Below are positions 6,755-25,358 of a DNA stretch of 25,358 nucleotides, piece by piece; position 1 is the first letter of the stretch, and each line of letters starts with the position of its first letter. This DNA is from a virus. Below the pieces are notes generated by a model, which was not told where the DNA came from, ran no database searches, and saw only the letters and a program-made list of their open reading frames with translations. The position numbers and the translations under genes were made by a program. Location: IMG/VR virus record IMGVR_UViG_3300020196_000218, positions 1 to 25,358 of that record. The stretch is one strand, 5' to 3'.

Positions 6755-6761
6755 GATATCT

Positions 6762-6768: not shown

Positions 6769-6773
6769 TTTTA

Positions 6774-9700
6774 TTATTTTGGTGTTGGAGTTATAAGTAA
6801 TCCTTTAGAACCGGTAACTTTTGCTGCTTCAGTTTCTTTGTCAATTCTAGTCTTCTCTGCTTTTGCTTCTTTAGCTACGGCAGTATTATAAGCCTTTGTT
6901 GACTTATCTAATGCTTTTTGAGCTGCTTTAACATTTTTCTGTTTCGCATTCTGCAAATTGGTTGCTGCTTTCTTTAGGTTTGCTTCTGCAGTAGAAAGTG
7001 CTTTTTCTGCTTTTTTCTCTGCGGTTACTGCAACATTTTTTGCTTTTATTAGAGCTTTACCTGCAGTGCTTTCAGCTATAATTACATTAGTATCAAATAT
7101 CAATGTTGATCCGACTAGTCCTGTATTTCTCTTTCCAATAAATCCATCACTAGTTGATTTATTTGCTTTTGTAGTTAGGTTTTTATTAGCTAATAATTGA
7201 TTTGAAACTTTTTGTGTTGACGATCCAAATTTAGCGGCTAATTCCTGTACTTGTTCTAAGGTTAATATCTGTTTGTCATAAGTACCCGCTCTAACAGTTT
7301 TTTCAACTGTAAATGTTTCTAGTCTTAGATCATTCTCAGTTAAAACTATTCCAGCAGACTTGAATATTCTAATTGCACCATTCCTATCGATTTTTGGCAA
7401 TGCTTCCAATTCCGCAAAATTATAATACTTTCCTTCATAAAGAACAGTATTTAACTCTAACGCAGTTATTTGTCCTGTTGAATTATTAAATGTGACATAA
7501 TATTCTTTTCCGGTTGGTGCTGGAGGACCTGGAGGTGGTGGTAGAGGTAACCCTGCAATAGCTGGTGCTGGTTCTGGTGGAGTTGGTGGAATTGGAGGTT
7601 CTGGTACAACAATTGTTGGTTGTATGGGCACCACAACTTCTTGTGCTACAGTTGGTGTTGGAGTAACAGGACTTGGTTCTGGTGGTACTACTACCACTGG
7701 AGTAGGTAGTGGTGGTGGTGGTGGTGGAAGTACAATATTATTGTTAATAACAGTTGAAGAAACAACAGTTGATGATTCAGAAACTGCTGCTTGAGACTCA
7801 ATAATAATTTGTGTTTCTACTCTCTTATTGCGAACAGAAAGAACATTTTCTTGAAGGGTATTAATTTTTCCTTCAGAGAAGAACTTTTCTTCCGCGCTTG
7901 TAGTATTCAATCCACCGGTGGTAGCATTTATAGAATTACTAGACAATCTGAATAGTTTAGTACCGGCGGCAAAGGATGGATTGGTGTTTACGTTTGGATT
8001 AGGAACAAAGAAGGATCCTATTAAAGTTCCTATAGTATCTGTAAACAATCTAACTAATGTAACTGTAGCTTCTGCTCCACTTGTCTGCCCTCTCAGTTTC
8101 ATTCCTGTTTGAATGAACCCATAATAATTTCCTTGAGATTGTGAAGACAAACTGAAAGTATCTACATTTAGAATGGTTGAAGTTGAAGAATAATTTGCTG
8201 GAACCTTTAAACTTCTTTCATATGGATTTACATCATATACGTCTGTTGGTTCATTGAATGGTCCATACTTATGGTTTTGTTTTGCTACTCTAAACCTAAT
8301 AGAAGCTTCTGAATTTAGAGTTCGGGATGAATCGTTTATTTCTCCAATTACAGTTTCTCCAACTACGAAAGTTCCAGATGTCATTGAAATTTCAATTAAT
8401 TTGGGGACGACAAATTTACTTACATCTTTACCATCAAAAAATGGATATACGCGAGTCATAGGTTTCAGTCTATTTGCTGTAAATTCAATATTTCTAGATC
8501 TCATAAATGGAACAACGTCAGTGGAAACTACTCTATCTCCTAAAGAAACCGTATCAAAAGCTTCTTTAGTTATTGCTCTAGTCCCTTGTCTTGTTGATGT
8601 TCCTGTTTTAGTTACAGTTTCAATAGTTTTGTTTGTTATTTCTTCAGAATTATTTTCACTCTGTGTGGTCGTAAGAGTCTCTTGTTTTTTGTTTTCTCCC
8701 GTCCACAGAGTTTCCCAAGATCCCCAAGTAACAGGTGAAAATCCAACTTGCTGGTCTAACTGTCCTATTTGAATTTGTTCGGAAGTTTCTGTATAGTTTC
8801 CTAAAACATCTACCTTATTCGCTGCAAGTTTTACCGTATCGACCCAAACATCAGATGATGGATTTAGTTTAATTGTTCCACCATAATAAGTAACTCTAAA
8901 CGGAGTGACATTTTCAACTCTTGTTGCATATGGTTGTGTTATTTCCGGAACTTCATCATAGTTCAGTGTTATAACTTGACCCATTCTCTTAATACCATCA
9001 CCAATCAGATCAGTGGCAAATGCTGGATCTTCTGTATTTGATGCGAGAAGATTATTGGATCCTAATAGTAAATCAATTGAAGTTGTATATGGAGTTGGTC
9101 TTAATTCTGAATTTTTTACATCTATGCTATTTTTTACAATAGTATCTTTTCTTTGGTATTTTGTGGTTGAGAAATCATCAACAAAAAATCCAGACTTAAA
9201 CCTATCTAATCCATTTTCATCTTTAATAGAAAGATTTGAAGTATCTGATTCTAGTAGTGATAAACTAGTATACAATTCTAAATTTTTAATTCTATTCTCT
9301 AGTTTATTGATATCAGACATTTTATAATGTTTATATTCATTCAATATAATATTTGCTGAATCAATAGTATACATATAAGGTGGCAGATATGCCGTTCCAA
9401 CTTCTATTGCATTATCGATAGATTGTGGTGGTTGTGGATTATCTGAGGGACTTCCAACGCTAAGTTGGAAAAATCCTTCTTTTGATAGGAAAATTTTATC
9501 AATTCTTGGTAGATAATATGAATAGGATAATAATATAGATTCATCAGACGCTAAAACATTTGCAGAAGAACTACCACTAGAAGTAAAATCTCTTCCCAAA
9601 AATTCAAAAGGAGAACGAACTGATTCTGCAACACTGAATGTCGCTACTCTAGGTCTGATATCTAAAATATCAGAATTTCTAGTTCCATTTATTGTGGGAA

Positions 9701-12683
9701 TTTCTGCATAATCAAATTGATTATATGAACTTGCTGTTATTAAGTCGCCAGAATCTGCTGAAGAAAACTCTGCAGATTCGAACACAATTTTTAATTTATT
9801 AGTTGGTTCCTTAAAAGAAGATTTTCTTAAAATTTTACTATAATCATATATTACATTATTTTGACCGTTATCTAAAATATAATTTTTTGTAATATCTTTA
9901 TCACCCTCATCAGATGCTGAAATTGCACCTGTTATGCCAGATTCCATAAATACGATATTTTCTCCAATTTGGAATCTATTATCATTTAAATATACAATGT
10001 TAATTTTATCATCGTTAACTTTTTCGATATATATTGCTACAGCATCACTAGAGGAACCAATAATTTCTTCACCAACAATTAAATCTCCAGTTTTATTCGT
10101 AGGTCCACTTAAACTAGTAAGAGTTAAATTTGGTAAATCTGGATTTGATGTATCATTTGATTCAAATATTCCATAAAGTTTTGTAACATCTGGAACTAAT
10201 AGGCAAATTTGTTCGTCTTGAACACGAGGGGCATATGGATAATTTCCAAAAGTTAGTCCATCATTTAAAGTTGTTGCTCCAATACCTGATCCATCATACT
10301 TTGATTTATCTACAATAATAGTTTTTACTTTGTTTTTGTTTTTTACCTTTGCCTTTACGTTAATTTTTCTCAGAGTTGCTATTAGTTTAGCCGCACCAGA
10401 TCCAGACAATCCTTCTATAGATAATTCTTTAGATCCTGCTGAAAAAGAGAACTTATCTGCACTTAATGGTTCTATAGTTCCATCAATTCTAATTAAAACA
10501 TATCTTTCTTCATCATATGGTAAAAATGTTTCATTATCATTTCCCGATGAAATTGCACCAGTCGCTCCTAGAACAGAAATAGTTACGTCAAATTGTCTTC
10601 TAATTGTTAAATTAGATTCTGTGAGATCTACTGATGATATGTTCTTTTTGGGTAAAGCAGTGAATAAAGTATTATCTGTAGATGACTGTAAATTTGAAGT
10701 TAGGATTCTAAAATCACTTGGATTAATGATTGTCTGGGGTAATGCCCCATCACAAATTCCAGATACTGTTGTTACTCCAGAAATTGTAATATCATTTTGA
10801 GAAACTGACTGAATTTTTGCAAAAGTTGGTACGGTTAATCCTGGACTTGAAAACGCAACGATAGCGCCGGCAGTTACAATTCCAGCAAAAACAAAACTTG
10901 TTGATGATACTGTACTAACTCCGCTCTGGGCGGTTATATTTACTTGTCCTACCTGATATTGTATTGATTGTTTTACATCTCCACTGAACGTATGTGCAGT
11001 CCCTACGATTCCATACAAAGACTTTACGTCATTTGTTCCATATGCAGTGATTGCTGTAGAAACTCTGGTATTTTCTATTCCGTCGAAGATAAGTCTCTCT
11101 CCAACAATAAAACTACCTTTTGTGGAGTATGCCGTAATAATTCCACTATTGGAGGCATCATATCTTAAATATCCAACAGCTCCGCTTGACCTTCCCTTAA
11201 TATAAGTCGGAACAGAAAGAGTAATCGGTTCATTTACTTTTATTTCAGTGTAGGTTTGGATATCATACAGTGTTATGTCCCACTCATTTAAAGATAAAGC
11301 ACTAGAATTATATGACCCAGATTCTAGTGCAAAATCATAGACTCTTGACAATCCAATTTCTTTCCCAGGAGAAGTAATGCTACTGACACCAACTCTACTA
11401 TCTCTTAAACTTACGGTATAATTTGTAGAAATTCCTAAAATTGGAGAACCGTGAACTCTATTCAAAGTGTATGTTGGACCTGTAAAATAATTAACACTTT
11501 GATCTTGTAATTCTTTAGTTGTTCTTGGTTTTATGAAATCCAAAAATATTGGAGTAATAGTTTCTACTTCATACCCTTTTACATATGCTTTCAGGGGAGA
11601 TATTTGATATGATCCAAGATCTTTTGATGCAGATATCCCGTTATAAGTTACTTCACCTCGATTGAAAAGTCCGTTGTTTCCTTTTAAATCATTTAAAGTT
11701 TCTCTTACTGTAATACTTGGAGATTTTATATAATAATCTCCAGACTCTTCATATGTTCTTCTTGCAAATTCGTCCTCTATAAAATTATAATCTGTTTTTT
11801 GAGGTACTGTTTTAACAGACCCATTTTCTACTTCCATTAATGTGATAAAATTTTCAGCTTTAGTAGAACTCAGAGCAATTTTACTTGCAATTGCTCTTAT
11901 GGAAAGTCTATCAGCACCGGGAGACGTGTAATTAGAAAATCCTTTTGAGTTATCTGTTAAACTTAAGTCATCGTCTGGAGTAATAATATCTTCGAAAATT
12001 TCAAACCCAACTCTGTAACTAGGAGTATTTGAATACTGATCTAATAATATTGTCTGCTCTTGAACTTTTACAAATCTACCTCTTAAATAGTAAACCCCTT
12101 CATATATGGTGATAGCAGATCCAATTGAATTCGGATTTGTAGAAATTGTAGTTGCAAATCCTTGACCTGCTTGAATTAAAACCCTTTGTTGACGATTTAA
12201 AGTACTATCTCTATTTAAATTTTCTTCTAATATTAATACTTCACCGGAAGCAAATCCCTGATAACTTCCCGTTTGATAATCTGAACTTAAAAAATTAACA
12301 TATAAAGTATTATTTCCTCTTTCAGAATTGGTAAAATCTAAAGCTGCAACAACTTTTGCTCTTATGCCTGAGGATTGCCCCCTTATAGTCTTACCTAAAA
12401 GATATGGAAGATATGTTAAAACACTAATACCCAAATATTCTAATTGAATTTCTACCGCATTAAAATTTTCATTATAATTAACTCCACCTGGAATTACAAC
12501 CGAACCTTCTTTAAAGAAATGATTTCCTAAAGATTCTATTTGATTTTGAAGAGTTGATTGTAAAGTTGTTAACTCTCTTGCTTGAAGAGGATATCCTGGT
12601 TTAAATAAAACCTGATAGTAATCGCTATTTTTGTCAAAATCATCAAAATAAGGGGAGACGTTGAGATTAGTTTCCTGTGGCAT
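6774..12683 (-). CDS. DUF4815-type tail / baseplate-fibre protein with Pro-rich linker and Lys/Ala-rich tail, 1969 residues
   Basis: The N-terminus NLNVSPYFDDFDKNSDYYQV, LFKPGYPLQARELTTLQS, LGNHFFKEGSVVIPGG (residues 6-67) is the DUF4815 signature of large structural proteins in marine T4-like phages. Modules with G-x-x-SG turns follow: about 96-115 (IRGQSSGIRAKV), about 500-535 (IKGRSSGAVGYL), about 865-920 (GEEIIGSSSDAVA) and about 1525-1545 (LRGQTSGAEATV). Just before about residue 1640 the familiar SFFVPNPNVNTNPSFAAGTK and ENVLSVRNKRVET occur; relatives normally continue into the DPLAQSF half. Here the chain instead enters a Pro-rich stretch (about 1650-1725), a short folded-looking region, then a Lys/Ala-rich heptad tail (about 1870-1960, AEKKAEKALSTAEANLKKAA). 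The gene starts six bases after gp8. It is probably a baseplate-attached fibre or adhesin component in the T4 gene 9-12 position; no catalytic motif was seen. Confidence 0.85.
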   Translation of the reverse strand: MPQETNLNVSPYFDDFDKNSDYYQVLFKPGYPLQARELTTLQSTLQNQIESLGNHFFKEGSVVIPGGVNYNENFNAVEIQLEYLGISVLTYLPYLLGKTIRGQSSGIRAKVVAALDFTNSERGNNTLYVNFLSSDYQTGSYQGFASGEVLILEENLNRDSTLNRQQRVLIQAGQGFATTISTNPNSIGSAITIYEGVYYLRGRFVKVQEQTILLDQYSNTPSYRVGFEIFEDIITPDDDLSLTDNSKGFSNYTSPGADRLSIRAIASKIALSSTKAENFITLMEVENGSVKTVPQKTDYNFIEDEFARRTYEESGDYYIKSPSITVRETLNDLKGNNGLFNRGEVTYNGISASKDLGSYQISPLKAYVKGYEVETITPIFLDFIKPRTTKELQDQSVNYFTGPTYTLNRVHGSPILGISTNYTVSLRDSRVGVSSITSPGKEIGLSRVYDFALESGSYNSSALSLNEWDITLYDIQTYTEIKVNEPITLSVPTYIKGRSSGAVGYLRYDASNSGIITAYSTKGSFIVGERLIFDGIENTRVSTAITAYGTNDVKSLYGIVGTAHTFSGDVKQSIQYQVGQVNITAQSGVSTVSSTSFVFAGIVTAGAIVAFSSPGLTVPTFAKIQSVSQNDITISGVTTVSGICDGALPQTIINPSDFRILTSNLQSSTDNTLFTALPKKNISSVDLTESNLTIRRQFDVTISVLGATGAISSGNDNETFLPYDEERYVLIRIDGTIEPLSADKFSFSAGSKELSIEGLSGSGAAKLIATLRKINVKAKVKNKNKVKTIIVDKSKYDGSGIGATTLNDGLTFGNYPYAPRVQDEQICLLVPDVTKLYGIFESNDTSNPDLPNLTLTSLSGPTNKTGDLIVGEEIIGSSSDAVAIYIEKVNDDKINIVYLNDNRFQIGENIVFMESGITGAISASDEGDKDITKNYILDNGQNNVIYDYSKILRKSSFKEPTNKLKIVFESAEFSSADSGDLITASSYNQFDYAEIPTINGTRNSDILDIRPRVATFSVAESVRSPFEFLGRDFTSSGSSSANVLASDESILLSYSYYLPRIDKIFLSKEGFFQLSVGSPSDNPQPPQSIDNAIEVGTAYLPPYMYTIDSANIILNEYKHYKMSDINKLENRIKNLELYTSLSLLESDTSNLSIKDENGLDRFKSGFFVDDFSTTKYQRKDTIVKNSIDVKNSELRPTPYTTSIDLLLGSNNLLASNTEDPAFATDLIGDGIKRMGQVITLNYDEVPEITQPYATRVENVTPFRVTYYGGTIKLNPSSDVWVDTVKLAANKVDVLGNYTETSEQIQIGQLDQQVGFSPVTWGSWETLWTGENKKQETLTTTQSENNSEEITNKTIETVTKTGTSTRQGTRAITKEAFDTVSLGDRVVSTDVVPFMRSRNIEFTANRLKPMTRVYPFFDGKDVSKFVVPKLIEISMTSGTFVVGETVIGEINDSSRTLNSEASIRFRVAKQNHKYGPFNEPTDVYDVNPYERSLKVPANYSSTSTILNVDTFSLSSQSQGNYYGFIQTGMKLRGQTSGAEATVTLVRLFTDTIGTLIGSFFVPNPNVNTNPSFAAGTKLFRLSSNSINATTGGLNTTSAEEKFFSEGKINTLQENVLSVRNKRVETQIIIESQAAVSESSTVVSSTVINNNIVLPPPPPPLPTPVVVVPPEPSPVTPTPTVAQEVVVPIQPTIVVPEPPIPPTPPEPAPAIAGLPLPPPPGPPAPTGKEYYVTFNNSTGQITALELNTVLYEGKYYNFAELEALPKIDRNGAIRIFKSAGIVLTENDLRLETFTVEKTVRAGTYDKQILTLEQVQELAAKFGSSTQKVSNQLLANKNLTTKANKSTSDGFIGKRNTGLVGSTLIFDTNVIIAESTAGKALIKAKNVAVTAEKKAEKALSTAEANLKKAATNLQNAKQKNVKAAQKALDKSTKAYNTAVAKEAKAEKTRIDKETEAAKVTGSKGLLITPTPK
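6810..7075 (-). repeat. Lys/Ala-rich coiled-coil tail of the DUF4815 protein
   Basis: About 90 codons, almost entirely Ala, Lys, Glu, Thr and Asn in heptad-like order, are followed by a short end reading GSKGLLITPTPK. The composition resembles TolA/TonB-like spacers or histone H1-like tails and should form a long helix. It is strongly basic and differs from the Ser/Thr/Gly-rich beta-type remainder of the protein. Confidence 0.75.
7505..7735 (-). repeat. Proline-rich linker in the DUF4815 protein
   Basis: About 75 codons dominated by Pro, Val, Thr and Ala, starting with a run PPPPPPLPTP and ending LPLPPPPGPPAPTG. On the plus strand the DNA shows GGTGGT-type runs. Such sequence is extended and flexible, so it would act as a spacer between the baseplate-anchored part and the Lys/Ala-rich C-terminal part. 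Short GGT-type DNA repeats like this are prone to length change. Confidence 0.8.
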
Positions 12684-12689
12684 AATTCG

Positions 12690-14258
12690 TCAGAATTGCA
12701 AAATGACTTTGATATCTTCTTTTTGATTTTGAGACCTAGTTATTGAAGGTCTATTGTCAACATATAGTATGTTTCCAGAATATTTTTTTACTTCTGGATT
12801 AGAAATTCCTGAAGTGAATGATTGTCCTAGGTAATATGTTCTATTATTTATTTGAGTTGAAACACCACTAAAATTAGTATCAACATTCAGTGTCAAAGAT
12901 CCACCAGTAATATTTAGAGATCCCCCTGTTCCAGGACTAGCACTAAATTGATTTAAATCGAATCCATATGTTGGCGAAGAGTTTTGAGTTCCATCAGTAT
13001 TAAATCCGACTAAAGATCTATCTTGCCAATATTTTAAAACTCCAGTTGTTGAATCATATGAAACAACTCTACCTACAGTTGTAGACCCCGTGGAAACTGT
13101 TTGATAAATTTTCGAATCTCTTGTAAATGATGCAATTTTATAATCGTCTTCTGATCCTGGCAGTCCAATAAGTTTTAGAGCAGAAACTGCACTTACTTTA
13201 CTTAAGTCTAAAATTGTGTTAGAATTATATACCTGTGGATTTTGAACGATACCAACTCTGGCTATTTGGTTTCCAATAACAAAGTCTGGATTTTGTGTAT
13301 CATTTTCAATTCTAGAATAAATTAGAACATTATATGCTCCTAATTCTCTATAAACATCTGCTCCATGTCCACCTTTTGGTGGAATAATAACGTCAAAAGT
13401 TGGTGAAGTTGTACCAGTAGGTACGTTCCCACCAATTAAGTCAACAGAACCATAAGTATATCCAGATCCTCCATTTGATACAGAAATAGAACTTACTTTA
13501 GAATCACTCCCAACAACAATCGTTGCTTTAGCTCCGGTTCCGTCTCCTTTAATTGGAACCTCGCTATAAGTTCTATTAGCAGTTCCTAAACCAACACCTC
13601 TGTTTGTAACAGTAATTATTTTGAGTTGCTCTGATGTAGCAGCATTTTCTCTAACTGAAGCATTGTCCTCGTCAGTTTGCCAGTTTCTAGGAACAGGCAT
13701 AAAATTGATGGAATCAAATTTTACAATTTCACTGGGTTTGATTGTGTAGAGATATTTCCAAATATAACCATCACCACTTATTCCAGCAGTTCTTGGTTCT
13801 AAATCTGTAAAAGTTGGTTCATCGAGTGAAGATTTTCCCTCAGGATTTTCTGGATCTATACCATTATATAAACAAATATAAACTTTATAATCACTATTTA
13901 CAACATAAAAATTTGCAGAATATAAACTTGTAGCTCCTGATGGTTTAGATGTATTAGTTCTACTGATATCGTGTCTATACATATCATAAGTTGTTCCTGA
14001 GGTCCAGGTAATTTTTCTTATGACCTGTCTTACATCACTATCAGTTATTTTTTTGAGGGCAATCATAGTGTCCCAATAATCATTCTCCTGATCAAAATTA
14101 TCTTTAGGAGCAGGAGGACTTACGTCCCAGTTAGAATCATAATCAGTTGCATTTGGTAAAGCAATAAAAGAATAAAAAGAATTATCTGTTGTAGTTGCAG
14201 CCGCAACAAAACTTTTAGCGTTTAAAATTCTTAACTGATCAGTTATAATTGCAGACAT
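12690..14258 (-). CDS. gp8: gp8, baseplate wedge subunit, enlarged
   Basis: A 522-residue homologue of T4 gp8, a wedge component that binds gp7 and gp10 in the baseplate arms. The match to T4 rests on GDGYIWKYLYTIKPSEIV (162-179; T4 has GDGYVWEYLFEIPP), then NFMPVPRNWQ, and on the C-terminal ILYVDNRPSITRSQNQKEDI (T4 ends with YMENRPPI and then a Q-x-E-[ED]-I motif). The N-terminal block, MSAIITDQLRILNAKSFVAA to WDTMIALKKITDSDVRQVIR, is the marine T4-like form. T4 gp8 is 334 residues. The extra length is largely at about 210-300, with a Gly-Tyr module (SNGGSGYTYG, about 258-270), and at about 380-490, a Ser/Thr/Gly-rich stretch. It follows the gp7-like stop by 22 bases, with a possible late promoter over that stop, and precedes the DUF4815 gene by six bases. 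No clear Shine-Dalgarno. Confidence 0.88.
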   Translation of the reverse strand: MSAIITDQLRILNAKSFVAAATTTDNSFYSFIALPNATDYDSNWDVSPPAPKDNFDQENDYWDTMIALKKITDSDVRQVIRKITWTSGTTYDMYRHDISRTNTSKPSGATSLYSANFYVVNSDYKVYICLYNGIDPENPEGKSSLDEPTFTDLEPRTAGISGDGYIWKYLYTIKPSEIVKFDSINFMPVPRNWQTDEDNASVRENAATSEQLKIITVTNRGVGLGTANRTYSEVPIKGDGTGAKATIVVGSDSKVSSISVSNGGSGYTYGSVDLIGGNVPTGTTSPTFDVIIPPKGGHGADVYRELGAYNVLIYSRIENDTQNPDFVIGNQIARVGIVQNPQVYNSNTILDLSKVSAVSALKLIGLPGSEDDYKIASFTRDSKIYQTVSTGSTTVGRVVSYDSTTGVLKYWQDRSLVGFNTDGTQNSSPTYGFDLNQFSASPGTGGSLNITGGSLTLNVDTNFSGVSTQINNRTYYLGQSFTSGISNPEVKKYSGNILYVDNRPSITRSQNQKEDIKVILQF

Positions 14259-14277
14259 TTTACAGAGTTTTTTTATC

Positions 14278-14285
14278 TATTTATG
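14278..14285 (-). promoter_or_regulatory. possible late promoter CATAAATA before gp8
   Basis: The minus strand reads CATAAATA, seven of eight matches to the T4 late core TATAAATA. It overlaps the stop codon of the gp7-like gene (TAA at 14283-14281) and leaves 19 bases to the gp8 ATG. In T4 the core lies just upstream of the transcript start, so the leader would be about 14 bases. Of the candidates here this is the closest to the T4 core and the best placed. Confidence 0.45.
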
Positions 14286-17200
14286 AGTTATAACTAAAAT
14301 ACTTAAGAGGATTAATCCTTTCGACAGTTGGGGATGTAGATATTCCAGATATTCCGTTTTTATTGGAAATAAATTCTTTAGCGTCAATTCTAGTATTTAA
14401 ATTAATTTTGCCCCAACTATATCTTCCATAGAAATTACTGTACCCAAGTCCGGTCAAATTATTATATGAAGTTAGGTTGACTGTTACTTTAGCAACTTGA
14501 GTTAATCCAATTCCTAATACACTTGTTGTTCCTATGGAAACAGAAGATGCATAGTAAATATTATCTAAGAACGAAGTTCCAACTCCAACAACAGAATTTG
14601 ATGAGTTTAAGGAAGTGACACCATTTCCAACATTTGACTCTGATATTATAAAGTAAAATCCAGTTTGGATACCACTAATAGTAATTGCTGTTCCAACTAT
14701 TGAAGAATCTCTTAGGAAAGAATCATTTGGTATATAAAAATCAAAAACGAGAGCTGTAGAAGCGATTCCGATTGAAGTTGTATTAATTCCCGAAATAATA
14801 CCAAAATCACCACTAAATGAAGATGCAGTCACATTTTCTATATTTTTGGATGATGAGGGACTCTCAATCAATACAACAGGAGGAGTTGTTGAAGTATATC
14901 CAGTGCCTGGATTTGTGATAATAATTGAAGAAACTGTACCTCCCACAGAAATTGTTGAAGATGCTTCAGATCTTTGCGTTGTTCCCAAACCAACTGGATT
15001 TTCTATAGTTACTGTCGGTGAAGTTGTATATCCAACTCCTCCATCGGAAATAACAATAGAACTTATTGTTCCAAGTCCAGACACCACTGCCGTGGCCGAA
15101 GCTGAAACCAGTGTTTTTTGAGATACTATCTTAAGTTTTCCAATAAAGGAAGACGATGTATTTTCTTTTGAACTATCAAAGAAAGTCTTAACACTTTCGA
15201 CAAAAAGTATATTTGTAGTTACGCCAACATCAGCAATTATATTTGTTGTGGGTTGAATCAATGGTTCATAAGAAGTTCTATCTTTTGTAACTGGTTTACC
15301 GTCAATAAATTTATCTTCGGTTTGTCTACACCAAGTTACAGATTTGACAAATGTCTCATCTGTATTAATTCCAACTCCACTATAAACATTAGTTTTGACT
15401 ATGTTCGATGAATCAACTGAGTTTACAGTTCTTTCTTCTTCTCTATAAAGAATATTATCACTATAAAGAGTAATATCATCTCCTTTTTTAACAGTTTCTA
15501 AGATATCAACGTCTACAACGTCAACTCCTCCCGTTCCTTTATAGAATATAATCTTGCAAGTATCGCCTTCTTTAGGTGCTTCTACAAAATCAATTATGCT
15601 GCCACCATCAAAATTATACGCTACATTTGGAACTTGAAGTATATCATTATGGAATATCAACAAAGTAGATTCTATATCAATATCAGATCCTTTTTTAGAT
15701 CTAATTGTTTTAAATTCTCCATTAAATTTTAATTGGAAAGACTTTCTAACACCATCAAATAAATCACTAATATCATCTAGAGATTCTAAATCACCAACAC
15801 TCCAACCGACGAAAGAATCTTCATATGTTTTTTCTACTGTAATTTTAAACTCCTCAAAGGATAATCCTAGATTTGTTGGGATTCCCGTTATTCCGCCAAA
15901 TGGAACTGTTAAAACTTGTCCTTGACCGTATCCATAACCATAATTTTTAATTTCAAAGTTTATAACGCTAGATCCTTGTCCGACAGTAATATCAATAGTT
16001 GCACCCGTTCCAATTCCACTTGAAGAGGAACTATAGACTAATGGAATATCTGAATATGACAGGGGATCATCAAAAACAACTATTGGCGGATTGGTTGAGG
16101 TATATCCACTACCTGGATTAGTAATTGTAATCGTTGATGATAATCTTCCTGCGTTTACAGTAGAATAACCAACGTTAATAATGGATGTGATTCCCACAGT
16201 GCTAGTGGCAATTCCCACATTAACAATACCAATACTTGGATTGGATATTTTAACTGTCGCTTGAGTTCCTGATGGTATAGTGTATGAGGTAGTTGCACTA
16301 GTTCCAACTGTAATAAAAGTTGAACCAACAGAAGTAATTACAGATCCAATTCCAATAAAAGTTCCAACTCCAATACTACAATTAGATCCAGTATTTAAAA
16401 GATTTAGGATACTGAAAATGCTATTAGAATTTTCCAAATAAATTATTGTAGATCCTACACTAATAGGAGAAGAAATATCAGCACTTATTTCATAAACACT
16501 AGATGCACGATATCCAGAACCAGCACTTCCAATACCAATTGATTGGATTGTTCCAGCAGTAGAAACTACAGCAGTTCCTCCAGCGGAAACAAGTGGTTGA
16601 TAACCAAATCCTTGACTGGATCCAACAGAAACGATAAGACCACCAACTGGTACATTTGATGATTGAATATCATAAGAAGATACTGATGCTGGTGGTGTCG
16701 ATCCAGTAAAGAAAATACTGGTTATACCTGCACTTTCATTTAAATAATAGTTTCCAGAAACAAAAACTGGAGATGTTGATCTTCTTGGTTGTTGAAAAAT
16801 TTGATTAATCAGAACAATGGCATTGCTAGTTACAATTCCACTCACAGGACTTTCATTGCTTGACAATGTAAATGATGTAGTAACACCGGTAAAATTATTT
16901 GAAATATCATCAAAGATATAGTTTCTATCGTAGGTGCTATCTGTACTTCCAATTAATCCAGATCTTAAAAATATCCTACCATCAAAAGTTGAATGTGTAG
17001 ATATTCCTTCAAAATCTCTTTCTGATGGTGGATTTGTTGTACTAGAAATCGGAGTCAATCCATATGGCGCTTCGGCAAAGTTAATTTGATTTCTTACAAT
17101 ATTGAAATTACCATTGACTTTAGTAACTTTGCTGTTTATTGAATGAAGCTCTAAATCAGTTCCTAACGAGGGTCTCCTTACTGCAAATACGTTTGTACTA

Positions 17201-20200
17201 CCAAATCCAACTCGCGTAATTTGCATTATTTCTTGGTCAATTTTTATTAAATCTCCACCGAAGAAAGAGGTAATTCCGGCAACAGTTATTGAATCGTCCG
17301 TAGTTAAAACGGGAAAGATTATGTGAGTTGTAATTGCTGTAGAAACAACAGGAGATTGAATGACGTTATCTATAGAAATTAATACCCTTTGATTTTGACT
17401 AAATCCAACAAATGAATGAGACGTTCCAACTCCAACCGCAACAATATCAAATGTATCTGGAACTGTTAATAAAGCATTTTCAGCACTAGCGGTTAGTTTG
17501 ATATTTGAGTTATCAATTTTTACAACATAAACATTAGATGGAAGAAGATCTGTGCTTCCAATACCAGGAACGGTGGTTGTTGCTATTCCGATGGGAGTTC
17601 CACTATTAGAATATGCTAATTTTTCTCCGGTAACAAAGAAGTGATTTGGTAGAGAAATTGTATTTTTGGTTGTGTTAACAACTGAAGTTAAATCTCCTCT
17701 AAAAGATCTTTCGAATATTGAATATCCACTATGAGTTAAATCAAATTGTTTCTTTAAATCTTTTGAGGTTCCAAAATAACGTCCAGAGACACCTTCAATA
17801 CTGGATTGATTCATATCAATTGCTACTGATCCTAAAGTGGAATCTGTTGCAAGACCAATCGTAGACATAAATGTACGAACTTCAATTTGACTATTTGCTA
17901 TTGGAGTAAATCCAATTTCAACAAATGATCCTGAAATATCAGCATCAAAAGACCCTAAAGAAGTATCACTCTCAACAACACCATATTCGACAATATTTGG
18001 AGTTGTATCATCATCGACAACAGTTATTTCAGAAACCTGATATCTATTATTTGTTAGATCTTCAACGGAAACAATCAAGTAAGCTCCATTGTATTTTTCT
18101 GTTGAATATGTAATGATTCCAACTTTTGTGGGGGATCCTGATGCTGCTATTGAGGTATATCCAGATTTAATTTCACTAGTATTGCAGACTGTAGATCCTG
18201 TTCCAACAAAAGAACTATTACCAATAGAGACTGCTAATGTATTTGAATAGAATGAAACACCCAGTCCAGCATTGGGGTAAAAATCAATATTTAAATTGGA
18301 TCCTATTATTTCTGCACTATAGGTTCCCAATCCACTTGAAGATGGGACAAGATTATTATTCGTTTTTCCATATTCAAGTAGAAAAACATCGGAACCATTA
18401 TGAATTGCTGTCAATTCATTTGTTTCATAATATGATCCATTGGTAGAAGCAATACTAACTAAGAACTTAGATGCCCTGTAAGAAGAAGAAATGCCAATTA
18501 AATTTGCAGATGTGCTTAATCCTACAGGAAGTTTTGCCGCAGATGTTTGTAACTGAACTACATTTCCTATAGATGTGGTTCCAATGCCACTATAAACTTC
18601 TTCCAAATTAAATGACAGTAAACTGATGTCATAATCATTAACTTCATAATATATGGGATAGAAAAGAATTCTACCTTCAGATCCTAGAATGTCAAAATCA
18701 AATGTCCCAAGATCTTCTACTGTATATACCTTTGCATATTCGTTAATAAATGCATTGGTCCCATCTTGTAGCAAAGTAAATAGTGAAACTTGTCTTTCGT
18801 GGGAGAATCTTTTATCTCTAACAAATGTTAAATATTTTAAGAATCTGGCAGAATTAATATTAAAGGAAGAAATCACACTAAAAACAGTGCTTCTTGGCGT
18901 GTTATTAAAACTGTCACTGAAATTATCGACTATCAAAACTCTGTTTCCTACAGATTCCACATAATCTTGTAATATTTTTGATTTAAAGAACACCTGATCG
19001 GAAATTAATTTTGTTCCTATTTCTAAACTATTTTCAGTAACTAAATCAAAATCATAATAGCAGTTTAAATCTACTGACTCGAAAATGTCACAAATTCCAG
19101 ATACGTCCCCAAGATCTTGGTTTGTAGACATACCTGCCCCAACGCTTGGAGTTGACTCAATAACTAAATCACTAAACTTTTTGAATCCAAGAGTGTGATT
19201 TAATGTACTGACTGGTTCATTCCAAGTTTCAATTGGAACTCTTGATTTGATTGAATATGACATATTTTGATAATAGTCACTGTCTTTTTTTCTTTGAGAT
19301 TCGTCATTTAAAAATCCAGAACTGTTTTTCCATCCATCTATTTTTTCAACTGAAGAACTCATTGAATAAACTATTCTCGTATCCTTAACATCTTCAATTT
19401 TTGCTCTTGATTTTGAGGTTCTTCCTTCAATAATCTGATCAATCTCAAAATTATTGAAAGATGATATCTTCATATAGTTGTTTTTGCCATCCGAAACTTC
19501 CACAACACCAGTTGCAGAATCTGTAAAGACAACTTCTCCGGGTCTAAAATTATTTTTCTTAAATGTTGGGGCAAATATTGGGAAATATTTTTCTGGAGTT
19601 ATAATTCCAGCGGACAAATTAGTGTTGAATTTTCCAGGAACTTCATTTTCTCCCAAATATTCTGTTAGATTGTATTTTACGGATGCTCCCGAACCACCAA
19701 ACTGCGGAGTAACTTGAGTTAGAGTAAAAAGGGAATATCCATAGTTTTCTGAATTGTATCCCTTTCCGGTTGAAAAAACTCCTACACTTGTATTTTCAAT
19801 AATTACTTTATCACCAACTTGGAAAGGAAATACATTTCCAGTGCTATAAGTCGCTGCTAAACCAACGGTAACATCCTTAGTTGCTGGATCATATGTTATT
19901 GATTTTATACCAATACCGTTTGAATTATTAATAGGAATAAATTTTACATTATTTTCATATATGCCATAAGCGTTATTTCTTATCAAAACTTCTTGATTTT
20001 GTAATGAATATAAAAAATCAACCTCAGATAGTACTTGATTTGTTAGAGTATCAATTGTAACTAAGTTTGGTGCTTTTGTATAATATTTCCCAACTGATGA
20101 AATTCCAATCTTTTCGAAAGAAGAGAAGGCAGTTAATTTTACAATAATTGGTAATCTTCCGGTCAATGCTAAAGTGGGATCTGAAGGATAATCAAATCCA

Positions 20201-23200
20201 AAGTTTTCAATCTCTACCTTTTTAACTTTGCCAATAGAATCGTCAAAAATGTTCACTACACATCCTGTTCCAGTTTCGCTGAAAATTGATGAAATTCCGG
20301 GAAGTGATTTATAACCTCTACCATTAGAAATTACATTAATTTCTGACACTTCGCCTAAAGCTGATTTTGAATTTGTTTTATATTCAAATAATCCTTGATT
20401 TATAGTATAGAGACTTTGCTCTGGTCTTCTAGATATATTAAACTTAAATGTAGTAGATCCAATACCAGTTACATTGAATACTCCAAAGTAATCACTTGGT
20501 TGTACTGATAATAAATTACTATTTTGGTTATACTCCGAATCATTTATTATTTCTTTTTTAATATTTAAATTTGTAGTAGAAGGAATCGGATCTAGTGAAT
20601 AATATAATTTAGTTGGAGTAAGATCTGAAACAAATAGAGTTAATTTTGCATCAGCATCTATTCCAATCCTTCCTACTTTTACTACATCAAAGTTTTTAGA
20701 TGAAATAGATTCAAATTTGTTTTTAAACTTAAAATCCGTATACAGATTAAAATCAAATGCAGAGTATGTTGTTAATTGGCTTTGGTACGATAAAGAAGAA
20801 TCTGACAAGTCAAAAATTACAGTTTGATTTTCCGTAATTTTAATTTCTGGATTGACTTCAGATAAAGTTCCACTGGATGTTGATGTAATATCAACTACAT
20901 TAGGACTTAATAAAGATGTTTGATAATGATTATCAGTTAATCTAAAGATATTTTCGTCATCAACTATTGCATAGTAAATTGTATTATTAACCAATCCACC
21001 AGCTGGAGATGTTGAAGTATGAATTAATTTTTTACCAGTATAATAGTTGTGGTTATTGATTGTTATTTGATTTTTACTTGTGTTTATTCCAGATGAGGAA
21101 AAATCTCTTGGATTTACTACTAATCTTCTATGATAATCATTGTACTTAACTACAACAGTAGTTGTGATTCCAGATTTAACATTTATTAAAACCCTATCGT
21201 TATCCTCTAATCCGTGAGTAGATGCTGTTGATACAGTTACGATATTACTGTTTACTTTTCCACTTAAAACTTTATCATAATCTGTTTTAAAACTATGAAT
21301 AGCACCTGTCCCTAAACCAGTAATATAAACAGTTGAAACGTTCGTAGTAGAATTAATTCCGACAAAAAATCCAGTGGATCCTAATCCAACTCTCTCAGTT
21401 GCAATTCCGATGAGATCCGATGATAATTTTGCTGCATATAAAAGTTGGTTTTCGCTTAGTTGATAACTTGATATTCCATCAGTAGATATTGATAGTCTAG
21501 TTCCACCGTTAGAGTTGTAAATTAACTTGTCACCGGTGTTAAGTTTGTGATTTGGTAAATAAATCGATTTTGTTGGAACAAAAATTTGAGTGATTCCAAC
21601 TCCAGGATTGGAGAAAGTAAGTGTAGTTCCAATTCCAACTCCAGATATTGTACCGACCCCAATAGATTCGCTTGGATCAAAATAGATTTGCTTGTTTACG
21701 TTAAACGCGCCAGATGTTGAGAATCCAACATTAATATTGAATTTTCTTGGATTTTCTATTATAACGCTTGAAAATGTATGCGAAGAACCAACGGTTCCAT
21801 CATATCCTCTAATTATCCTTATTCTTGAAGAAGTTTTGTCTACAGATAAAACTTTTATTTTTTCTGTTCCAATACCTAAAATATCATTTTCTCTTATGTT
21901 GGGGAAACTTAAATTTCCATTGATTGAAAAATATGTTACTATTCCGGTAGAAGATATATCTCCAACTGCATTAGTAAGAACAAAAACATCAGTTTTAACG
22001 CCTATGGAGTAATTATCTTGTAAATAAAATCCATTGGTGGATATTCCACTAATGTTAATAACAGTATTATTAGTTAAATTGTGTGGAGTCGTCGAAAATC
22101 CTATAAGAGATTTAAGACCATTTGAATAGAATTCAACATTATCAATTGATCTACTTTCAGTTTGAATTGTATTGATTGGTTTTCCTTTTAAAATAGAAAC
22201 ATATGCAAATGCATTTGATCCTCCAGAATTTCTATCATCAAATACTAGTGGATCCCCAACAGAATAATTTGATCCTCCAGTAACTATACCAATCGAATTT
22301 ATGGATCCAGTTGAAGTATGAGATACTTTTAAGTTACTATTACTTAAATATTTTTTGTCTAACAAAAAGTCATAAGAAGTATTTTCTTCCGTTAATCCAT
22401 ATGGTGTTGTGTTTCTGAGTAAAGGAGAAGTTTCAAAATCAAAATCATTTTGAGTTGAATTTGTTTCAAAATTAAAATTGATTGGAATTGAGTTGTACTT
22501 ATTACCAATAAAGTAGGGAAAAATTGGTTTTTTGAAATTTTTAAATGGTCCTTCAGATTCTATTGAATTATTGATAGTTGAAAAATAAGCATATACACCT
22601 TTTGGATAATCTGGAGTTACGCAAAATCTTCCATTATATTCATCTAAATCACTATTTCCCCTATAGACATAATCTTCAATAAAAAAACCTAGAGGGAAAA
22701 TAGTTTGGCTTGGTCTATTTGATGAAATTTCTTGTTCTTTAATTAGTTCATATCCAGAACTCATTTGCTTAATAAAACCCCTACCTTCAGGATTTGAATA
22801 AGCATAAGGTCCGTAAATTGGGTTACCATCATACGCCCATCCAATTATTGGTGAATGAGCATCGGAGTTTAATTCTTGATTATTTTGGATTCTTAAATCG
22901 GGTACATAATTTAATTCACCATTTATATATTTTGACGCTAAAATTTTCTCTCTTAATAATCTAGGACTGTATAAATGGGTATACTGAAGTTCATTCTCAT
23001 CGTTGATGGAATTGGTAATGACTCCATCGTCAGAATATATTTGATTAGATAATAAAAGTTTTTCAAATAAATTTATTTGCCAGGATTTAATTTTAGATAT
23101 CAAAGAACATCCGTACTCTACGGGCACTACTAGAATTTCAGTGCTTTCACTCTCATAACCTACACCACCATTAATAACTTTAACCTCAGTTAAAACACCA

Positions 23201-25358
23201 TTTTCTATAATTGGAGTAAGAGAAGACCCTTCACCTGTACCTAAAATGGGGAAGTCCGGTATTTGAGTATATCCACTACCAGAATTTTTTACAATAACTT
23301 GTGTTATTTTTCCATTATTTACTACTGGTTCTAATTGAGCTTTTGTTCCTGATGAGATGGTTATATTTGGTTGTCTATTGTAATTTATAATTTCCGAAGA
23401 TCCATAATTTGATCCTCCATTAGAGACATATATTGATTTTATTGATCCTCTGAAAATTGGTTGTAAAACAGCACTAGTACTGAAGTTTGCTGTTGTTATT
23501 CCAGTATATCCTGATATTGATACTGAAATCGGTTCGTGATTAAAGATATGTTCTCCAGAACCTTGGGATGTAAAATCAACAAATTGTCTGGATTGATAAT
23601 AAAAATCTTTATTAGTATTTCCAACACCAATTTGTGATAATTTAAATTCATCTGAACTTATTTTTGTAACATAATATGATGTTGTTGACAATCCCCCTAC
23701 ATTTGTCCCATTATATGAATATGAAATAATATCACCACTAAGATACCTATGATTTTTTGCAAATACTATATCTGATGCTGTGTTTATTCCTACTGGTTCA
23801 ACAATAATCTTTCTGTTTCTATAAAGTGATCCTTTATTTTCAATTGAAATTGATCCAACTTTCTTTTTTAGGACAGATGAAATAAATCTATGATTGCCCT
23901 TTCCATATTGGGTTAGATTTATCGTATTAATTCCAATAGCTGCTTCATTTGAAGAATTATGTATGGTTACAGTATAATCATTTTTTACGCAAACATAATA
24001 CACAGATCCTGTTGAAAGACCGGAAATTGCATCTTGATCGTCTGTTTCGTAAATAACAGATTCTGCATTTCTAAATTTATGATATGTTGAAAATGCTACC
24101 GTATTATTTGATAAATCAACTAAATTTGCATTTGAAGTTGAATTAAATACTGCAGCATGTTGGAAAGTAATTAAATTTGCTTTTGCTAAAGCACCATATC
24201 CATTTCCCCCTATTATTGTTATAACAGGAGTATCCAAATAATCAAATCCACTGTCAATTACATCAATTCTATCTAAGTGTCCCTCCACCTCACAAAAAGA
24301 TGTTGCCCCAATACCAACTAAATCAGTTATCGTTATATTGGGTGGATTAATTACATCATATCCACTACCAGGAGACAAAACATTTATTTCTTCGATTCCA
24401 CCATGATAAACAAAATTATTTGATTTATAATTTGAAATTTCAACACCATTCACCAAAATTCCGATTGGTTTATTTGAAGTTTCATACTTGTTTGAAGTTT
24501 TTGTTACTTCAGATATTTTTCTAATAATTTTTTGTGGTTTCAGAGTTTTATTATAATGTTCTAACGGATAAATGGGATTATTCGTCGCGGCACCAGAAAA
24601 ACTTACATATTTTGAATCAAATAAATTTGATCTAGACTTTGAAAGTTTAATCGTAGTATCATCTATTTTTTTAATGAAATAAATTCCAGAAGAAATACCT
24701 ACATCAGATTGATTATCATAATATATGGCATCTCCAGTTTTGAATCCATGAGAAATAATTGATCCGTTATCATTAAAAGTTTCAACACTTTCTCCAGAAA
24801 GTGTTCCACTCAAATAAATTGTATTTACTCTAACTGGAGATGAACTATAATCGGGTAATGAATTAGATGTTATATAAGTTGAAACGTAGTCACTATAAAC
24901 ATTTTGAATATTTGATGTGTAATTGTTTAATTTTGAATAATAGAAAAAGTTTGGTTTGGAAATATTTCTTCGGACTTTAATGATTCGAGAAATATCAATG
25001 TTTCCAATATCTTTAATTTGAAATACGTTTTTGTTTAAAATTGAAAAAACAGTTCCTATAATCTCGGTTCCGTCTGATAAAAATAATGTTATCGAATCAT
25101 TAGGGAGAAAAATATTTTTATCGTAAGTTGTAATATTACATGTAAAATTTACATTATTAACTTTTTCTATTTTTTTTACTTCATAAGAAACCGAAATATT
25201 AAACAACCAGTTATTATCTCTTAGATTCTCTGAAGATACCCCAAAAGATTGAATTTTTCCAGTGTCTCCTACTTTAAAAAGAGAAGTCCCATCAATAATA
25301 TTTGCCCCAGAGATAATCGAACAAATTCTAAATGTAATTTTTTTATCAGGGTCTCCCC
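14281..25358 (-). CDS. gp7: Giant gp7-like baseplate wedge protein with YHYH-type domain and many repeat modules (5' end outside window)
   Basis: The frame is open from the window edge to TAA at 14281: at least 3,691 codons against 1,032 residues in T4 gp7. Residue numbers below count from a TTG at 25206, which is not a true start because the frame continues upstream (RICSIISGANIIDG). The gp7 call rests on position just before gp8 and on blocks I know from marine T4-like gp7: NLFEKLLLSNQIY with YTHLYSPRLLREKILASKYI (about 720-760), the YHYH-type domain (about 780-880), SVGNRVLIVDNFSDSFN (about 2085-2100), TWCRQTEDKF (about 3285), and YGRYSWGKINLNTRIDAKEF near the end. In between are about 14 Gly-Tyr modules, about eight H-x-x-x-x-GD modules, three tandem units of about 125 residues and two RG-type modules. 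T4 gp7 holds the wedge together in the baseplate; the extra mass is probably exposed. No membrane segment or protease motif was seen. Confidence 0.82.
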   Translation of the reverse strand, partial: GDPDKKITFRICSIISGANIIDGTSLFKVGDTGKIQSFGVSSENLRDNNWLFNISVSYEVKKIEKVNNVNFTCNITTYDKNIFLPNDSITLFLSDGTEIIGTVFSILNKNVFQIKDIGNIDISRIIKVRRNISKPNFFYYSKLNNYTSNIQNVYSDYVSTYITSNSLPDYSSSPVRVNTIYLSGTLSGESVETFNDNGSIISHGFKTGDAIYYDNQSDVGISSGIYFIKKIDDTTIKLSKSRSNLFDSKYVSFSGAATNNPIYPLEHYNKTLKPQKIIRKISEVTKTSNKYETSNKPIGILVNGVEISNYKSNNFVYHGGIEEINVLSPGSGYDVINPPNITITDLVGIGATSFCEVEGHLDRIDVIDSGFDYLDTPVITIIGGNGYGALAKANLITFQHAAVFNSTSNANLVDLSNNTVAFSTYHKFRNAESVIYETDDQDAISGLSTGSVYYVCVKNDYTVTIHNSSNEAAIGINTINLTQYGKGNHRFISSVLKKKVGSISIENKGSLYRNRKIIVEPVGINTASDIVFAKNHRYLSGDIISYSYNGTNVGGLSTTSYYVTKISSDEFKLSQIGVGNTNKDFYYQSRQFVDFTSQGSGEHIFNHEPISVSISGYTGITTANFSTSAVLQPIFRGSIKSIYVSNGGSNYGSSEIINYNRQPNITISSGTKAQLEPVVNNGKITQVIVKNSGSGYTQIPDFPILGTGEGSSLTPIIENGVLTEVKVINGGVGYESESTEILVVPVEYGCSLISKIKSWQINLFEKLLLSNQIYSDDGVITNSINDENELQYTHLYSPRLLREKILASKYINGELNYVPDLRIQNNQELNSDAHSPIIGWAYDGNPIYGPYAYSNPEGRGFIKQMSSGYELIKEQEISSNRPSQTIFPLGFFIEDYVYRGNSDLDEYNGRFCVTPDYPKGVYAYFSTINNSIESEGPFKNFKKPIFPYFIGNKYNSIPINFNFETNSTQNDFDFETSPLLRNTTPYGLTEENTSYDFLLDKKYLSNSNLKVSHTSTGSINSIGIVTGGSNYSVGDPLVFDDRNSGGSNAFAYVSILKGKPINTIQTESRSIDNVEFYSNGLKSLIGFSTTPHNLTNNTVINISGISTNGFYLQDNYSIGVKTDVFVLTNAVGDISSTGIVTYFSINGNLSFPNIRENDILGIGTEKIKVLSVDKTSSRIRIIRGYDGTVGSSHTFSSVIIENPRKFNINVGFSTSGAFNVNKQIYFDPSESIGVGTISGVGIGTTLTFSNPGVGITQIFVPTKSIYLPNHKLNTGDKLIYNSNGGTRLSISTDGISSYQLSENQLLYAAKLSSDLIGIATERVGLGSTGFFVGINSTTNVSTVYITGLGTGAIHSFKTDYDKVLSGKVNSNIVTVSTASTHGLEDNDRVLINVKSGITTTVVVKYNDYHRRLVVNPRDFSSSGINTSKNQITINNHNYYTGKKLIHTSTSPAGGLVNNTIYYAIVDDENIFRLTDNHYQTSLLSPNVVDITSTSSGTLSEVNPEIKITENQTVIFDLSDSSLSYQSQLTTYSAFDFNLYTDFKFKNKFESISSKNFDVVKVGRIGIDADAKLTLFVSDLTPTKLYYSLDPIPSTTNLNIKKEIINDSEYNQNSNLLSVQPSDYFGVFNVTGIGSTTFKFNISRRPEQSLYTINQGLFEYKTNSKSALGEVSEINVISNGRGYKSLPGISSIFSETGTGCVVNIFDDSIGKVKKVEIENFGFDYPSDPTLALTGRLPIIVKLTAFSSFEKIGISSVGKYYTKAPNLVTIDTLTNQVLSEVDFLYSLQNQEVLIRNNAYGIYENNVKFIPINNSNGIGIKSITYDPATKDVTVGLAATYSTGNVFPFQVGDKVIIENTSVGVFSTGKGYNSENYGYSLFTLTQVTPQFGGSGASVKYNLTEYLGENEVPGKFNTNLSAGIITPEKYFPIFAPTFKKNNFRPGEVVFTDSATGVVEVSDGKNNYMKISSFNNFEIDQIIEGRTSKSRAKIEDVKDTRIVYSMSSSVEKIDGWKNSSGFLNDESQRKKDSDYYQNMSYSIKSRVPIETWNEPVSTLNHTLGFKKFSDLVIESTPSVGAGMSTNQDLGDVSGICDIFESVDLNCYYDFDLVTENSLEIGTKLISDQVFFKSKILQDYVESVGNRVLIVDNFSDSFNNTPRSTVFSVISSFNINSARFLKYLTFVRDKRFSHERQVSLFTLLQDGTNAFINEYAKVYTVEDLGTFDFDILGSEGRILFYPIYYEVNDYDISLLSFNLEEVYSGIGTTSIGNVVQLQTSAAKLPVGLSTSANLIGISSSYRASKFLVSIASTNGSYYETNELTAIHNGSDVFLLEYGKTNNNLVPSSSGLGTYSAEIIGSNLNIDFYPNAGLGVSFYSNTLAVSIGNSSFVGTGSTVCNTSEIKSGYTSIAASGSPTKVGIITYSTEKYNGAYLIVSVEDLTNNRYQVSEITVVDDDTTPNIVEYGVVESDTSLGSFDADISGSFVEIGFTPIANSQIEVRTFMSTIGLATDSTLGSVAIDMNQSSIEGVSGRYFGTSKDLKKQFDLTHSGYSIFERSFRGDLTSVVNTTKNTISLPNHFFVTGEKLAYSNSGTPIGIATTTVPGIGSTDLLPSNVYVVKIDNSNIKLTASAENALLTVPDTFDIVAVGVGTSHSFVGFSQNQRVLISIDNVIQSPVVSTAITTHIIFPVLTTDDSITVAGITSFFGGDLIKIDQEIMQITRVGFGSTNVFAVRRPSLGTDLELHSINSKVTKVNGNFNIVRNQINFAEAPYGLTPISSTTNPPSERDFEGISTHSTFDGRIFLRSGLIGSTDSTYDRNYIFDDISNNFTGVTTSFTLSSNESPVSGIVTSNAIVLINQIFQQPRRSTSPVFVSGNYYLNESAGITSIFFTGSTPPASVSSYDIQSSNVPVGGLIVSVGSSQGFGYQPLVSAGGTAVVSTAGTIQSIGIGSAGSGYRASSVYEISADISSPISVGSTIIYLENSNSIFSILNLLNTGSNCSIGVGTFIGIGSVITSVGSTFITVGTSATTSYTIPSGTQATVKISNPSIGIVNVGIATSTVGITSIINVGYSTVNAGRLSSTITITNPGSGYTSTNPPIVVFDDPLSYSDIPLVYSSSSSGIGTGATIDITVGQGSSVINFEIKNYGYGYGQGQVLTVPFGGITGIPTNLGLSFEEFKITVEKTYEDSFVGWSVGDLESLDDISDLFDGVRKSFQLKFNGEFKTIRSKKGSDIDIESTLLIFHNDILQVPNVAYNFDGGSIIDFVEAPKEGDTCKIIFYKGTGGVDVVDVDILETVKKGDDITLYSDNILYREEERTVNSVDSSNIVKTNVYSGVGINTDETFVKSVTWCRQTEDKFIDGKPVTKDRTSYEPLIQPTTNIIADVGVTTNILFVESVKTFFDSSKENTSSSFIGKLKIVSQKTLVSASATAVVSGLGTISSIVISDGGVGYTTSPTVTIENPVGLGTTQRSEASSTISVGGTVSSIIITNPGTGYTSTTPPVVLIESPSSSKNIENVTASSFSGDFGIISGINTTSIGIASTALVFDFYIPNDSFLRDSSIVGTAITISGIQTGFYFIISESNVGNGVTSLNSSNSVVGVGTSFLDNIYYASSVSIGTTSVLGIGLTQVAKVTVNLTSYNNLTGLGYSNFYGRYSWGKINLNTRIDAKEFISNKNGISGISTSPTVERINPLKYFSYNS
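14846..16620 (-). repeat. C-terminal Gly-Tyr module cluster of the gp7-like protein
   Basis: Five copies of the Gly-Tyr module lie at about 14880-14950 (GTGYTSTTPPVVLIE), 15000-15075 (GVGYTTSPTVTIE), 15900-15960 (YGYGYGQGQVLTV), 16070-16140 (GSGYTSTNPPIVVFD) and 16490-16560 (GSGYRASSVYEI). More copies occur at about 20060-20340 (three), 22250, 23140, 23265, 23400, 24230 and 24360, for about 14 in the protein. They resemble those in gp14, gp8 and the 832-residue protein. Confidence 0.75.
17850..18862 (-). repeat. Three tandem units of about 125 residues in the gp7-like protein
   Basis: Units lie at about 18595-18862, 18228-18490 and 17850-18135. Each has a leading strand region (RFLKYLTFVRD, ASKFLVSIAST, NGAYLIVSVED), then EYAKVYTVEDLGTFDFDILG, EYGKTNNN with LGTYSAEIIG, or EYGVVESDTSLGSFDADISG, then an alternating strand ending in FYP, FYP or FTP. 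The spacing is regular at roughly 370 bases. The copies are clearly homologous as protein but well diverged as DNA, so the duplication is old. Confidence 0.75.
20905..24765 (-). repeat. Dispersed H-x-x-x-x-GD ... YYV modules in the gp7-like protein
   Basis: About seven copies of a 45-55 residue pattern lie here, with an eighth at about 17460-17650. Each starts with His and a short turn (HGFKTGDAIYY, HKFRNAESVIYE, HRYLSGDIISYS, HKLNTGDKLIYN, HNYYTGKKLIHT; eighth copy HFFVTGEKLAYS). After a Gly/Ser loop come a Y-Y-V-like strand and a K-L-S or R-L-T strand (YYVTKISSDEFKLS, YYAIVDDENIFRLT, YVVKIDNSNIKLT). The HNLTNN and HGLEDND copies are the most diverged. This is a compact all-beta module; its function is unknown. 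Confidence 0.7.
22570..22862 (-). other. YHYH-type domain within the gp7-like protein
   Basis: Encodes AHSPIIGWAYDGNPIYGPYA, then a linker, then LDEYNGRFCVTPDYPKGVYA followed by YFST. This is the layout of the YHYH domain family (S-P-[IL]-[IL]-G-x-A-x-D-G-x-P-I-Y-G-P ... L-D-E-x-N-G-R ... Y-P-x-G-x-Y-x-Y). The last Tyr-x-Tyr corresponds to the end of the family's namesake Tyr-His-Tyr-His type motif, but the His is Ala here (VYAYF). The biochemical role of the domain is unknown to me. Confidence 0.75.

Follow-up and report, generated by a model that had tools for sequence, protein, structure and literature searches.

The DNA analysed here, referred to as the window, is the whole of the 25,358-base viral contig IMGVR_UViG_3300020196_000218. 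Its minus strand is free of stop codons from position 25356 down to 14281 and holds no start before the contig edge. The stop codon of this frame lies at 14281, and the frame of gp8 begins close behind it, at 14258. The genes and modules discussed below are as follows, with residues numbered along the encoded fragment.

14281–25356, minus strand: giant baseplate wedge gene of gp7 type, 3,691 codons long and truncated at its 5′ end where the contig stops
24571–24771, 23884–24102, 23542–23772, 21289–21570 and 20857–21072, minus strand: HGFxTGD modules 1–5 of the core insert (span 20857–24771; HMM E 4e-14 to 2e-17)
24070–24267, 23239–23394 and 23119–23253, minus strand: GGSGY modules 1–3 (span 23119–24267; HMM E 1e-10, 4e-13 and 8e-5)
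22567–22875, minus strand: YHYH domain (PF14240), residues 828–930 (Pfam E=5e-25, 89 bits against a gathering score of 25)
21751–21915, minus strand: 'RG' module 1, residues 1148–1202 (HMM E=5e-19)
19153–19281, minus strand: half B of the gp7 core, residues 2026–2068 (SDYYQNMSYSIKSRVPIETWNEPVSTLNHTLGFKKFSDLVIES), matched by hhalign, with its counterpart at about residues 861–896 of T4 gp7
17854–18852, minus strand: three tandem HDGT/EYG modules, residues 2169–2247, 2292–2379 and 2421–2501 (HMM E 4e-23 to 3e-26)
17410–17664, minus strand: HGFxTGD module 6, in the C-terminal part (HMM E=2e-21)
17116–17292, minus strand: 'RG' module 2, residues 2689–2747 (HMM E=3e-23)
16063–16254, 14995–15168 and 14857–15051, minus strand: GGSGY modules 4–6 (span 14857–16254; HMM E 4e-10, 3e-9 and 5e-19; phrog_460 match)
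12690–14258, minus strand: gp8 baseplate wedge protein, the next gene downstream of gp7 (phrog_438 E=4e-165; PF09215 Phage-Gp8 E=1.6e-13)

A second record, IMGVR_UViG_3300020109_002404, is 99.98% identical over its positions 1–4048 to window positions 11303–15350 and comes from the same or a near-identical phage. Beyond gp8, at 4212–12683 on the minus strand, lies a VrlC/DUF4815-type protein (phrog_358) that is split into frames of 1,969 aa and 832 aa, 63 bases apart; in the 43 fetched proteins with both parts, it is a single frame. The first part has a Pro-rich and coiled-coil-like tail of 330 residues, to which nothing in the fetched loci corresponds.

The frame at 14281–25356 is a genuine open frame. 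ORF analysis on the minus strand and an alignment with homologues, in which the frame is conserved over its whole length, bear out the sequence-only reading of a single uninterrupted frame of at least 3,691 codons that is open at the window edge. A chance origin is excluded by the base composition of the contig. Ser, Ile, Thr, Gly, and Asn are abundant in the fragment, whose calculated mass is 400 kDa. Since its residue 2 corresponds to position 386 of the phrog_2885 profile, approximately 390–400 N-terminal residues are missing, giving a full protein of approximately 4,080 aa. This is 3.9 times the length of T4 gp7 (1,032 aa), as anticipated by the claim of a gp7-like protein more than three times the T4 size. 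The frame could in principle be an assembly or annotation artefact produced by fused or read-through genes, given the metagenomic origin and open end of the 25-kb contig, and the break-up of the locus into several frames in a few relatives, S-SSM7 among them. However, the 3′ end of the gene is covered by a separate contig (99.98% identical over 11303–15350), a single frame of the same length occurs in isolates with complete genomes, and 88 non-redundant complete relatives exist, which together make an artefact extremely improbable.

The encoded protein belongs to a known family. The profile phrog_2885, 'baseplate wedge subunit', matches residues 2–2970 (E=0) through profile positions 386–3362 of 4,179, and the tblastn matches along the full length are genes that Synechococcus and Prochlorococcus phage records annotate as gp7 or 'baseplate wedge initiator', including full-length matches to the annotated gp7 of S-SM2 and Bellamy. 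The protein is colinear with these relatives from end to end, at an identity of 33–43% to the nearest isolates and approximately 50% to a metagenomic IMG/VR contig. The phage belongs with these cyanophages, since its neck protein gp13 shares 71.5% identity with that of SynMITS9220M01. Judged by sequence, then, the frame encodes gp7 of a marine, T4-like member of the Kyanoviridae related to S-SM2, Bellamy, and SynMITS9220M01.

Within this group, the size of the protein is typical. Annotated gp7 proteins measure 4,156 aa in S-SM2, 5,195 aa in P-SSM2, 4,307 aa in P-TIM68, 4,067 aa in both Bellamy and SynMITS9220M01, 3,884 aa in S-CAM9, 4,225 aa in ACG-2014f, 3,495 aa in ACG-2014e, 4,024 aa in S-B05, and 1,915 aa in S-B68, while a 'structural protein' at the gp7 locus of S-RIM14 reaches approximately 6,200 aa. 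For 88 complete, non-redundant proteins drawn from both isolates and metagenomic contigs, the median is 4,098 aa, a value that describes the giant gp7 family, by similarity to which these relatives were collected, rather than all T4-like phages. Short annotated forms are those of T4 and of phiM12 (1,007 aa). Thus, the protein of the window is ordinary for marine cyanobacterial T4-like phages, almost all of which, among those examined, have a gp7 of comparable size. The exceptional size claimed from the sequence alone did not survive the length comparison across marine T4-like genomes, in which relatives at the locus are as large or larger and already annotated.

Homology to T4 gp7 is concentrated in two stretches, termed core halves A and B. 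Half A falls outside the window contig and is assumed for its phage; its profile was built from relatives. Among all PDB chains, the best match of this profile is T4 gp7 at residues 725–758 (E=4.7e-5), and chains of nitric oxide synthase and enterotoxin A, found at E 0.04–0.8, were taken as chance matches. Against the T4 gp7 family, hhalign gives E=1.5e-8, compared with 0.16 or worse for nine other T4 tail proteins, and the counterpart of half A in T4 gp7 lies at about residues 644–760. An AF2 model of the half A region has a mean pLDDT of 70, and a fold search of the PDB with it returned gp7 of T4 and KP1 at ranks 1–2 and T4 gp7 at rank 4 (E 1.6e-4 to 2.4e-3); the global TM-scores are low, and these matches are hence supportive only.

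Half B matches the T4 gp7 family weakly (T4 residues 866–889; hhalign E=4e-4 with 13 sequences and 0.06 with 65), and its profile found no chain in the PDB. Folded alone by AF2, it has a pLDDT below 50, so no fold was assigned. Stronger matches were obtained to gp7 of Desulfovibrio phage 7757 (hhalign E=2.5e-10) and of phiM12 (E=3e-8). The Desulfovibrio phage 7757 protein, 586 aa long and unannotated, contains both halves 114 aa apart; it matches half A at E=1.5e-8 and aligns to T4 residues 644–893 at E=1.6e-6. It provides a useful bridge from T4 gp7 to the giant forms.

The searches with existing models were negative for the window protein. The Pfam models Gp7_helical, Gp7_5th, and Gp7_6th, which describe the T4 subfamily, gave no match at E≤1 in either the window protein or Bellamy gp7. 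No PDB match to the window protein was found by phmmer at E≤1, and none in NCBIfam, where TIGR02242 matched phiM12 gp7, but only below its cut-off. Phage XM1 encodes a minimal gp7 homologue, gp17, of 242 aa that lacks the extra mass of the T4 protein (PMC10457771), and thus the additional T4-type domains are not required in a gp7 homologue.

The literature and the genome records disagree on these phages, with the records labelling the protein gp7 and a published analysis stating that T4 gp7 is absent from cyanophages and pelagiphages and apparently substituted by VrlC (PMC7029224). On that view, the giant protein would be an unrelated structural protein or adhesin at the gp7 locus, with the VrlC-like pair of 1,969 and 832 aa replacing gp7. 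This substitution has been published for pelagimyophages and cyanomyophages (PMC7029224), the Pfam gp7 domains are unmatched, and the majority of the protein mass has no T4 counterpart. Nevertheless, the homology of core halves A and B, including its specificity controls, and the bridging gp7 proteins of 586 and 1,007 aa argue against it. Moreover, the gene sits between gp6 and gp8, and the VrlC-like protein forms its own family (phrog_358, DUF4815) encoded downstream of gp8. Replacement by VrlC is therefore largely refuted for the family and very unlikely for this phage. The gene order is 25-6-7-8 in relatives, where alone gp6 and gp25 are visible upstream, and 6-7-8 in T4; in the window itself, gp7 is encoded directly upstream of gp8, as in the giant gp7 loci of Kyanoviridae. 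The core A profile, the predicted fold of the half A part, and the 6-7-8 order agree with the gp7-like identity first proposed from the sequence. A comparison with T4 gp7 by profile and AF2 model had also been suggested, and it succeeded for core A of the relatives in both respects and for core B through the bridging proteins, but failed for the Pfam gp7 domains. With high confidence, the protein is regarded as a gp7 with a split core, a correction to the published view that these phages lack T4 gp7.

The split is a matter of what lies between and beyond the halves. In T4 gp7, domains V (766–861) and VI (920–1012), as delimited by Pfam, flank half B, and halves A and B are separated by approximately 105 aa; in Kyanoviridae, the separation is approximately 2,180 aa. 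Across the 88 proteins, this insert has a median of 2,181 aa, an interquartile range of 2,171–2,203, and a coefficient of variation (CV) of 0.047. The tail after half B comprises approximately 1,600 residues, with a CV of 0.24 and a range of 17–2,965, and gp7 of S-B68 ends 17 residues past half B. Since insert and tail were measured in the same proteins, the difference in their variability does not arise from shared ancestry alone. The insert of the giant gp7 looks length-constrained and the tail looks accessory, even dispensable. The existence of small gp7 homologues in XM1, Desulfovibrio phage 7757, and phiM12 would suggest that the insert was gained in the giant forms rather than lost in T4. 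The layout of the extra approximately 3,000 residues had previously hardly been described.

This added mass is modular. Iterated HMMs (E≤1e-3) identified 17 copies of four types in the window protein, namely six GGSGY, six HGFxTGD, two 'RG', and three 'HDGT/EYG' modules, and none in shuffled proteins, in agreement with the at least four repeat families noted from the sequence alone. The insert contains five HGFxTGD modules, three GGSGY modules, one RG module, and the YHYH domain, and the tail contains three HDGT/EYG modules, one HGFxTGD module, one RG module, and three GGSGY modules. Copy numbers are identical or almost identical in the closest full-length relatives, which makes the modules a property of the whole family and nothing peculiar to the window. 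Elsewhere on the contig, GGSGY modules are found in gp8 and gp14 and the RG module in gp15, as if small modules had spread within one operon. More broadly, GGSGY, RG, and an F-x-x-G-E-x-V motif recur across the neighbouring baseplate and neck genes (gp7, gp8, gp14, and gp15; 522–2965 and 12690–25356).

The YHYH domain of the insert is present in all family members aligned. YHYH domains are predicted to be Zn-dependent hydrolases and occur fused to baseplate proteins (PMC7824862), with a His triad plus Asp as the predicted Zn ligands. On this basis, together with a match above the Pfam threshold and the presence of tail-fibre-like modules, the modules of gp7 could serve mainly in catalysis or receptor binding and not as a scaffold, the YHYH domain being, for example, a metal-dependent hydrolase. 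However, the only conserved candidate ligands are H834 and three Asp residues (843, 895, and 905), and the Y-H-Y-H motif reads YAYF in the window gp7 and in the cellular relatives inspected, with Ala and Phe at the H-x-H positions; catalysis by this domain is accordingly uncertain. The constant length of the insert further suggests a structural constraint, and a mainly enzymatic or receptor-binding role is rather unlikely. The idea that the histidines were lost in phages only was dropped, given that relatives from cellular assemblies, some of which are probably phage contigs, also carry YAYF.

The HDGT/EYG modules at the start of the tail weakly resemble beta modules of the gp9 C-domain or tail-fibre type. 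Their best fold match in the PDB is T4 gp9 (E=9e-4), and hhalign scores them at E=5e-5 against a gp9 family of five members and at 0.16 or worse against the gp10, gp11, and gp7 families. Compared singly with gp9, module 3 gives 3.6e-4, module 2 gives a marginal 0.004 (gp11 0.008), and module 1 gives no signal, and the Pfam model T4_gp9_10_C has no match in the window protein. In BFVD, the fold is found in many uncharacterised phage proteins, including several tail fibres, at 1.5–2 Å over approximately 95 residues. In T4, the long tail fibre is held by gp9, which binds a domain of gp7 (PMC3004832), and for this reason a fusion of gp9-type domains to gp7 would make functional sense. A separate connector gene of gp9/10 type lies beside or between the gp7 frames of S-SSM7, S-RIM14, and P-TIM68. 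These 'tail fiber connector' genes have an N-terminal gp9/10 Pfam match and do not match the HDGT/EYG modules, leaving a simple transfer of gp9 into gp7 unsupported.

Returning to gp7 as a structural scaffold with a split core, it can be proposed that halves A and B join and clamp the gp6 dimer, forming a (gp6)2-gp7 wedge core like that of T4 and XM1. The insert of fixed size would then leave the core as one arm reaching the baseplate periphery, and the variable C-terminal tail, beginning with its three gp9/tail-fibre-like domains, would form an accessory platform at the rim, bearing fibres or touching them. Perhaps the insert is such an arm and the tail such a platform, a proposal for which the chances seem about even. 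A location of the extra modules at the baseplate rim is plausible by analogy, as the added modules replace the peripheral domains V and VI of T4 gp7; the sequence-only reading had placed them there too, speculating on adhesion or stability in dilute seawater. More tentatively, the constant arm of approximately 2,180 residues may set the distance from core to rim, and the three gp9-type domains of the tail may form a covalent fibre socket in place of the gp9 trimer; neither a fixed-length arm nor a covalent gp9-type socket in Kyanoviridae gp7 was found described in the literature searched. Taken singly, the gp7 of the window matters little, its size being normal for the group. The value of the comparison lies in locating the extra mass, as an insert of near-fixed length within the core and a tail that looks dispensable, and the resulting split-core map offers precise targets for structures of cyanophage baseplates and for tracing baseplate growth by module addition.

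Compared with the giant gp7 proteins of other Kyanoviridae (S-SM2 gp7, Bellamy gp111, and SynMITS9220M01_083), the window protein shares the locus, length, and module order, with similar copy numbers, and differs in sequence divergence only, with nothing categorical to set it apart. T4 gp7 (PDB 5IV5 and 5HX2) has both core halves of the giant family and likewise lies between gp6 and gp8, but in T4, a 640-residue N-terminal region precedes the core, whereas the giant form begins at the core. The 96-residue domain V of T4 corresponds to the approximately 2,180 aa of the giant insert, and domain VI to the approximately 1,600 aa of the tail. Both phiM12 gp7 and the Desulfovibrio phage 7757 protein contain the two halves and, like the giant form, carry them from the N-terminus, though with far fewer or no repeat modules. 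With the halves approximately 800 aa apart in phiM12 and 114 aa apart in Desulfovibrio phage 7757, these proteins look like intermediate and near-minimal forms, respectively. Weak profile and fold similarity links the HDGT/EYG triplet to the C-terminal domain of T4 gp9, the tail fibre connector; gp9 exists as a homotrimer in its own right, whereas the gp7 of the window holds its three copies within one chain.
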